Assembly: GCA_035653615.1 (NCBI GenBank)
Contig: DASRBN010000025.1
Span: forward strand, 62,001-126,000
Length of the DNA: 64,000 nt
Reading direction: 5' to 3'
Source: Ktedonobacteraceae bacterium
GTDB lineage: Bacteria > Chloroflexota > Ktedonobacteria > Ktedonobacterales > Ktedonobacteraceae
Under the pieces are notes generated by a model that saw only the letters and a program-made list of their open reading frames with translations, had not been told where the DNA came from and did no database searches. The position numbers and the translations under genes were made by a program. Shown one piece after another: positions 22,270 through 23,270 of the stretch (position 1 is its first letter; every line of letters starts with the position of its first letter).

Positions 22270-22310
22270 CACAGGAGCGTTGCTATGCTGGCAACGCTCC
22301 TGTGCTTTTC
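22270..22310 (+). terminator. Rho-independent terminator
   Basis: A perfect 14-bp stem (CACAGGAGCGTTGC with its complement at 22291-22304), 7-nt loop, followed by CTTTTCT. It lies 22 nt after the stop of the propeller gene and separates it from the convergent AhpD-like cluster. Confidence 0.8.
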
Positions 22311-22393
22311 TACTCTTGTTGTTGACTTTCCTCTTGTGCCAGAATAGCATCGATACACTTCTCGAGGGCGTAAAGGCCATTGCTGGCGCGCAT
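22310..22393 (-). CDS. Possible 27-residue ORF coupled to the AhpD-like gene
   Basis: Its ATG (22393-22391) overlaps the TGA of the preceding frame by one base (TGATG), a normal translational coupling arrangement. The product has GLYALEKCIDAILAQEE, which resembles the C-terminal end of the first gene of the cluster (GLARLECGLAALKGEQE). It may therefore be a fragment left from a duplicated partner gene, or a true small peptide. Whether it is expressed is unclear. Confidence 0.35.
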   Translation of the reverse strand: MRASNGLYALEKCIDAILAQEESQQQE

Positions 22394-22932
22394 CAAAGAT
22401 ACCCTAGCTCCAGGAATCTCCCCGCTCGTGCCGCGAACGTTTCATCCGATAGCACCTTGAACCCCAGGGAATCCGCGATGCGATCAATCATATTGAAATA
22501 GGCACAAACGTAGATGGCATCCTCGATAGCTGCGTCGCTGACCCCTGCCTCACGTACTGGCACTATATCACCTGGCCCAACATCTTGAGGGGAAAGTGTT
22601 AACTTCTCTAAAAAGCCGAGCGTTGCTCGTAGCTTCTCATTAATGGGAGCCGTATGCCAGTCTTCCAGTACTGCCTGGACGAACTCGTTTCCGAGTGCCT
22701 TCGACGCGACCGCGCCGTGACTACCCGTTCAAAAGGGACATTGATTTTTGCGCGAGACGAAGGCTGCGAACAACTCCCGTTCTCCGACACTCCATTCTGA
22801 AGGGCCGCGCATCACATCCTCTAAGCAGCGAGAGAAAGGAAGACCAAAGAACTCTGGTCGATAGGATATTACACGGGTAACATCAGGTACGGGCTTATCT
22901 GCCATTACCTGGTCAAGTTTCTCAAGCCTCAT
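22393..22932 (-). CDS. AhpD/carboxymuconolactone-decarboxylase-like protein with in-frame TGA (candidate selenoprotein)
   Basis: Read through one TGA at 22731-22729, the frame from the ATG at 22932 (GAAAGGAGAAC before it) gives 179 residues, the normal length of peroxidase-related CMD proteins. The TGA is codon 68, at the position of the second Cys in the family motif C-x-x-C: residues 65-67 are CPF, then TGA, then TGSHGAV. Glu53, Cys65, codon 68 and His72 have the spacing of the AhpD active-site Glu-Cys-Cys-His. The 111 codons after the TGA stay in the same frame and look family-like (EAGVSDAAIEDAIYVCAYFN). A SECIS-like hairpin follows at once. As AhpD-like proteins reduce peroxides or thiols, Sec at the attacking position is chemically sensible. 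The alternative is a nonsense mutation or sequencing error. Automatic calling would break it into a 67-residue stub. Confidence 0.75.
22702..22731 (-). promoter_or_regulatory. Candidate bacterial SECIS element with its UGA
   Basis: The TGA is at 22731-22729. Starting 12 nt after it, bases 22717-22712 (CGGCGC on the minus strand) pair with 22707-22702 (GCGUCG) through six pairs including one G-U, closing a GGUC loop at 22711-22708. The loop begins 18 nt after the UGA. Bacterial SECIS hairpins, as in E. coli fdhF, carry a G-G-U in the loop at about this distance for SelB binding. The match in loop and spacing is seen; function is inferred. Confidence 0.6.
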
Positions 22933-23270
22933 TCCTGTTCTCCTTTCAAAGCTGCCAGTCCACACTCTAAACGTGCCAGCCCCGCGCCAAGCGCGGCGCT
23001 CAACGTGATTTCGAAAATAGCATCTTCAGAATAGCCGGACTGGCGCAGTACCGCGATATCCTCATCAGTCGTCTTGTAGGCATGTAATGCAACTTTTTTG
23101 AGATACATGGCTAAGCCAGCAGGAATATCTCCAGCCGAATTGCTGGGGCTACCACCCAGGTGGGCAACATATGCCGCGACAGCCTGTCGCATTTCGGTGG
23201 ATGTAGCGCCGGGACTTTGCAGCACCGCATCTTTCAATTGTTGCGCATATTCAGCGTGGGAGTTGTTCAT
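22929..23270 (-). CDS. AhpD-like partner protein without C-x-x-C
   Basis: 113 aa helical protein of the carboxymuconolactone decarboxylase fold type. DIAVLRQSGYSEDAIFEITLSAALGAGLARLE matches the final helices of AhpD-like proteins, but the C-x-x-C/His motif is missing and the protein contains only one Cys. It is the first gene of the cluster; its TGA overlaps the ATG of the candidate selenoprotein by 4 nt (ATGA). Probably a non-catalytic subunit that forms a complex with the downstream protein (inference). Confidence 0.75.
   Translation of the reverse strand: MNNSHAEYAQQLKDAVLQSPGATSTEMRQAVAAYVAHLGGSPSNSAGDIPAGLAMYLKKVALHAYKTTDEDIAVLRQSGYSEDAIFEITLSAALGAGLARLECGLAALKGEQE

Follow-up and report, generated by a model that had tools for sequence, protein, structure and literature searches.

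A candidate AhpD-like selenoprotein gene and its upstream partner in a Ktedonobacteraceae genome

On the minus strand of a 64,000-nucleotide stretch of a Ktedonobacteraceae genome (assembly GCA_035653615.1, 6.59 Mb in 44 contigs; the stretch, hereafter the window, lies on contig 25), a frame of AhpD-like sequence is broken by a single TGA, raising the question of whether this codon ends the gene, records an error or decay, or is read as an amino acid. The frame runs from ATG at 22932 to a TGA stop at 22395-22393, and its sole internal stop is the TGA at 22731-22729, codon 68, with 67 codons ahead of it and 111 behind; the two remaining frames of the minus strand over the same interval contain 10 and 11 stops. 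Read through, the gene (22393-22932) encodes 179 residues, with the TGA at the second position of a CxxC-type motif (CPF-UGA-TGSH) and with Glu53, Cys65, codon 68 and His72 spaced 12-3-4. The active site of M. tuberculosis AhpD, composed of Glu118, Cys130, Cys133 and His137 (PMC3141380), has the same spacing. A preliminary description of the locus had given these coordinates, this motif and this spacing, all of which proved right when the frame was read again. In our alignment (A1), positions 65, 68 and 72 are invariant and Glu53 is kept in at least 90%. The other features of the window described below also lie on the minus strand.

Under Table 11 the translation ends at 67 residues, and standard gene calling would cut the protein short at the internal TGA; the annotation is corrected here. 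Such a truncated product is what would be expected if UGA 68 were a true stop, or a sequencing or nonsense error in a decaying gene. We compared the source genome with 60 relatives (61 genomes in total), and the alignments revealed TGA at codon 68 in 14 further homologues, 47-64% identical, in 10 other genomes, bringing the total to 15 genes in 11 genomes. Because these relatives were sequenced independently, the TGA they share at this codon is very unlikely to be a sequencing error. Nei-Gojobori pN/pS ratios for five pairs are 0.16-0.35 upstream of the TGA and 0.12-0.37 downstream, and this similarity on either side indicates that protein-level selection of one kind acts on both the 67 codons before the TGA and the 111 after it. 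One of the 15 copies does carry a second stop: L054 (G016:C2:2270264-2270800), one of two Sec (selenocysteine) paralogues in genome G016, has TAA as codon 24, the rest of its frame being conserved, and may itself be decayed or contain a sequence error. This copy is the one point of the comparison that favors decay; against the retention of TGA in 15 genes, strong purifying selection downstream and the complete selenocysteine machinery described below, we consider a true stop or a decaying gene extremely improbable.

The in-frame UGA of the source gene stands where homologues carry cysteine, as is typical of bacterial selenoproteins. Codon 68 is TGT in three close Ktedonobacterial homologues without the stop, and TGC in homologues from Mesorhizobium, a Rhizobiales metagenome-assembled genome (MAG), Arthrobacter, Nitrobacter and Paractinoplanes. 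Two Cys homologues (L074 and L075, from Mesorhizobium loti DSM 2626 and Rhizobiales 65-79) have serine at position 65 and keep the cysteine at 68, and because they have lost the first cysteine yet retain the second, they suggest that position 68, the site occupied by Sec, is the essential nucleophile. In a phylogenetic tree, seven Cys homologues form one clade (100/100), Paractinoplanes branches separately on a long branch, and the Cys clade nests, weakly supported (82/80), among the Sec genes. A search for related loci with the single protein as query returned nothing, as it back-translates cysteine and is blind to TGA genes; with an alignment as query it returned Cys homologues only. A class-level search added no genomes to those of the relatives search.

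The source genome encodes the machinery that a selenoprotein requires, namely selA (577 bits), selB (333 bits), selD (381 bits) and a tRNA-Sec with the anticodon UCA. Its selD (L018, G000:C33:206603-207526) contains one in-frame TGA, in the motif SCAG-U-ASKMG, so that SelD is probably a selenoprotein itself. Among the 11 genomes with the TGA form, selA is present in all and tRNA-Sec in 10, the exception being the draft genome G030, in which a search for tRNA-Sec found none; the five of 61 genomes without selA and tRNA-Sec have no match to the protein either. These findings also bear on the possibility that UGA 68 is read as cysteine or tryptophan by a suppressor or mischarged tRNA. Cys-inserting tRNAs that read UGA exist in some bacteria, and the existence of Cys homologues would fit such decoding. 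However, UCA is found only in tRNA-Sec among the 48 tRNA genes found (47 standard plus tRNA-Sec), the single tRNA-Trp has the anticodon CCA, and TGA is the ordinary terminator of neighboring genes in the window. The presence of selA and of a selD with its own internal TGA likewise argues against cysteine or tryptophan, which we regard as a very unlikely reading. With UCA confined to tRNA-Sec among the tRNA genes found and the machinery complete, these genes include no candidate tRNA for either residue and selenocysteine is the only well-supported reading.

The preliminary description had proposed a selenocysteine enzyme on the strength of the motif, and had named as checks a search for TGA- and Cys-bearing homologues, a genome search for the sel genes and tRNA-Sec, and the state of the frame in relatives. 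Both kinds of homologue and all four components of the machinery were found, and the relatives' frames are conserved, so that its proposal gains support from comparative sequence evidence; the hairpin, the partner gene and the membership of a known family, discussed below, had escaped it. We infer that the gene very probably encodes an AhpD-fold enzyme with selenocysteine at codon 68, a residue that would be inserted by tRNA-Sec(UCA) and SelB under the guidance of a hairpin 17 nt downstream of the UGA.

RNAalifold recovers this hairpin as the consensus structure of the 15 Sec genes. Its core, a putative bacterial SECIS at 22703-22716, consists of a 5-bp stem (GGCGC/GCGUC) closed by the tetraloop GGUC (22711-22708), which lies 17 nt past the UGA. 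An extended lower stem (22692-22727) is predicted when the source sequence is folded by itself and is not conserved in the relatives. The stem has five pairs in 14 of the Sec genes and four in one, and the loop reads RGUY in all 15, GGUC in the source gene and AGUU in most relatives. At this position 98.7% of alignment cells are paired, compared with at most 63% when the hairpin is slid along the alignment. As quoted in PMC13188914, the bacterial SECIS model comprises a G[G/U] loop, pairing flanks, a spacing of 16-37 nt and an MFE of at most -7.5. The source hairpin fits this description (GGUC, 17 nt, MFE -17.7) and its core is kept in all 15 genes; the hairpin of the second copy in G024 is weak, at -5.7 kcal/mol, above the energy limit of the model.

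The stem falls within conserved HGAVAS codons, and conservation was therefore tested on synonymous codons. In the Sec genes, but not in the Cys genes, synonymous conservation over five-codon windows peaks at codons 72-76. Only two combinations of Ala-Val codons occur, GCA-GTT (11 genes) and GCG-GTC (four), and the loop ends are strictly coupled, A..U in 11 and G..C in four (Fisher p 7e-4, a value that overstates independence as the sequences are related). Random synonymous codons would yield the motif in ~19% of cases per sequence, compared with 15 of 15 observed, again with independence overstated among related sequences. Stem covariation is thin, with one double-sided pair change and an RNAalifold covariation term of -0.18; the fold of the source sequence taken singly is unremarkable (z -1.23), and a search of Rfam returned no family for this region. 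It is synonymous conservation and loop coupling that argue for a putative SECIS element, the covariation being too thin to do so by itself. The loop can be traced by synonymous-site conservation.

The enzyme belongs to TIGR01926 (peroxidase-related enzyme; 98.5 bits, cut-off 81.8) and barely reaches the gathering cut-off of the CMD family PF02627 (23.4 bits vs 23). It has no match up to E 1 to TIGR00777 (AhpD proper; cut-off 191.95), and with 38.8 bits falls well short of the 175 required for NF041238 (AhpD-related CFYUT (seleno)protein). An AlphaFold model (pLDDT 83.5) matches the AhpD-fold structures 6k40 (D. radiodurans AhpD), 3c1l, 2oyo, 2pfx and 2prr, a peroxidase-related group that contains the nearest solved structures by both sequence and fold; in alignments, 6k40 and 2oyo have cysteine where the source enzyme has Sec. 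M. tuberculosis AhpD, the TIGR00777 type, shares the fold class and the E-12-C-3-C/U-4-H spacing, but differs in having cysteine in place of Sec and is ~12-13% identical in the structural match.

Given the Glu-Cys-Sec-His relay of AhpD type, we predict that the enzyme is a thiol/selenol oxidoreductase in which the U68 selenolate would be activated via Glu53 and His72 and partnered with Cys65. The selenolate would most likely attack a peroxide or another oxidized substrate, and a Cys65-Sec68 selenenylsulfide could serve in regeneration, by analogy with the Cys pair of AhpD. Peroxidase chemistry is, on this analogy, somewhat favored. A selenoprotein with other chemistry, such as disulfide reduction, a peroxiredoxin adaptor role or a debrominase-type reaction, with the product of the adjacent gene as a substrate-binding or scaffold subunit, would leave the selenocysteine at codon 68 unchanged and alter only the reaction. 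The function of TIGR01926 is not experimentally established in the sources used, the neighboring protein appears to be non-catalytic, and the debrominase Bmp8 is among the fold matches of the enzyme, all of which agree with non-peroxidase chemistry; the retention of the full AhpD relay (Glu, CxxU, His) speaks against it, and we treat it as a possibility of lesser weight than a peroxidase.

The gene immediately upstream (22929-23270) encodes a protein of 113 residues, and its stop codon TGA shares bases with the Sec gene's ATG in the sequence ATGA. Its family matches are weak and limited to the C-terminal part of TIGR01926. The predicted structure (pLDDT 86.7) nevertheless has an AhpD-like fold, with 6k40, 3c1l and 2prr as best matches (query TM-scores of ~0.70-0.76, at Foldseek E-values >0.001), and the protein contains no CxxC motif, suggesting a degenerate, catalytically empty relative of the enzyme. 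Downstream of the Sec gene, a pattern match identifies a 35-bp palindrome between convergent genes (22270-22304), which is likely a bidirectional terminator closing a two-gene operon of which the Sec gene is the second member.

Strong matches to the partner occur in 13 of the 61 genomes, exactly those with the enzyme, and are absent from the rest; the partner is nearly always immediately upstream of the enzyme gene. The arrangement extends to other phyla: in Mesorhizobium, Nitrobacter, Arthrobacter and the Rhizobiales MAG, the Cys enzyme is preceded by a similar open reading frame that runs up to its start or overlaps it. The Ktedonobacterial Cys forms (genomes G004, G005 and G023; L058, L068 and L069) are single chains of ~307 residues, with the partner joined to the C-terminus of the enzyme. 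The order of the fusion is reversed relative to the operon, with the partner following the enzyme. The Cys fusion of Ktedonobacter racemifer and Ktedonosporobacter rubrisoli (307 residues; L058, L068) has the same two modules and ~43-48% identity in the enzyme domain, but combines CxxC with a C-terminal partner, whereas the source locus combines CxxU with a partner encoded upstream.

A physical complex is likely in view of the adjacency, co-occurrence and fusion taken together, and a two-subunit complex or mixed oligomer of the enzyme with its catalytically empty partner is, from this genomic evidence, plausible to probable. The more specific proposal, an obligate two-component selenoenzyme with an active selenol subunit and a dedicated dead AhpD-fold subunit, translationally coupled here and fused in Cys-using relatives, we consider evenly balanced. 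If it is true, such a two-component selenoenzyme would represent a heteromeric architecture that, as far as we found, is undescribed in the AhpD/CMD superfamily. A strictly co-occurring dead partner, encoded separately alongside the Sec enzymes and fused to some of the Cys enzymes, also offers a handle on the role of this poorly characterized peroxidase-related family.

AhpD-like proteins with CxxU have been reported from genomes (PMC1794560), from the Sargasso Sea (PMC1088965) and from the Global Ocean Sampling set (PMC2398784); a 2026 review lists TIGR01926 CxxU among the selenoprotein families (PMC13188914). The source enzyme shares with these proteins (TIGR01926/COG2128, AhpD-like 1 and 2) the TIGR01926 HMM family, Sec as the second residue of CxxC and a SECIS-like hairpin after the UGA. 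The Sec gene is thus a well-supported addition to an already catalogued selenoprotein family. It differs in belonging to a distinct Ktedonobacterial clade and in having a dedicated small partner, which goes unmentioned in the available portions of PMC1088965, PMC2398784 and PMC13188914; we found no earlier description of the partner subunit or of its fusion. A literature search returned no paper pairing the word Ktedonobacteria with selenoprotein, and the AhpC protein of K. racemifer has been used in an alignment (PMC5330540).

These genes point to clear selenium use in the Ktedonobacteria, some of which have two or more AhpD-like Sec genes in one genome. Most of the related genomes also contain more distant AhpD-like families (L035-L051, e.g., L036, L041 and L051; TIGR01926-like or YciW-related NF053654-like, at ~24-36% identity) with TGA at the same motif position, and the hairpins downstream of these TGA codons differ from the RGUY type.
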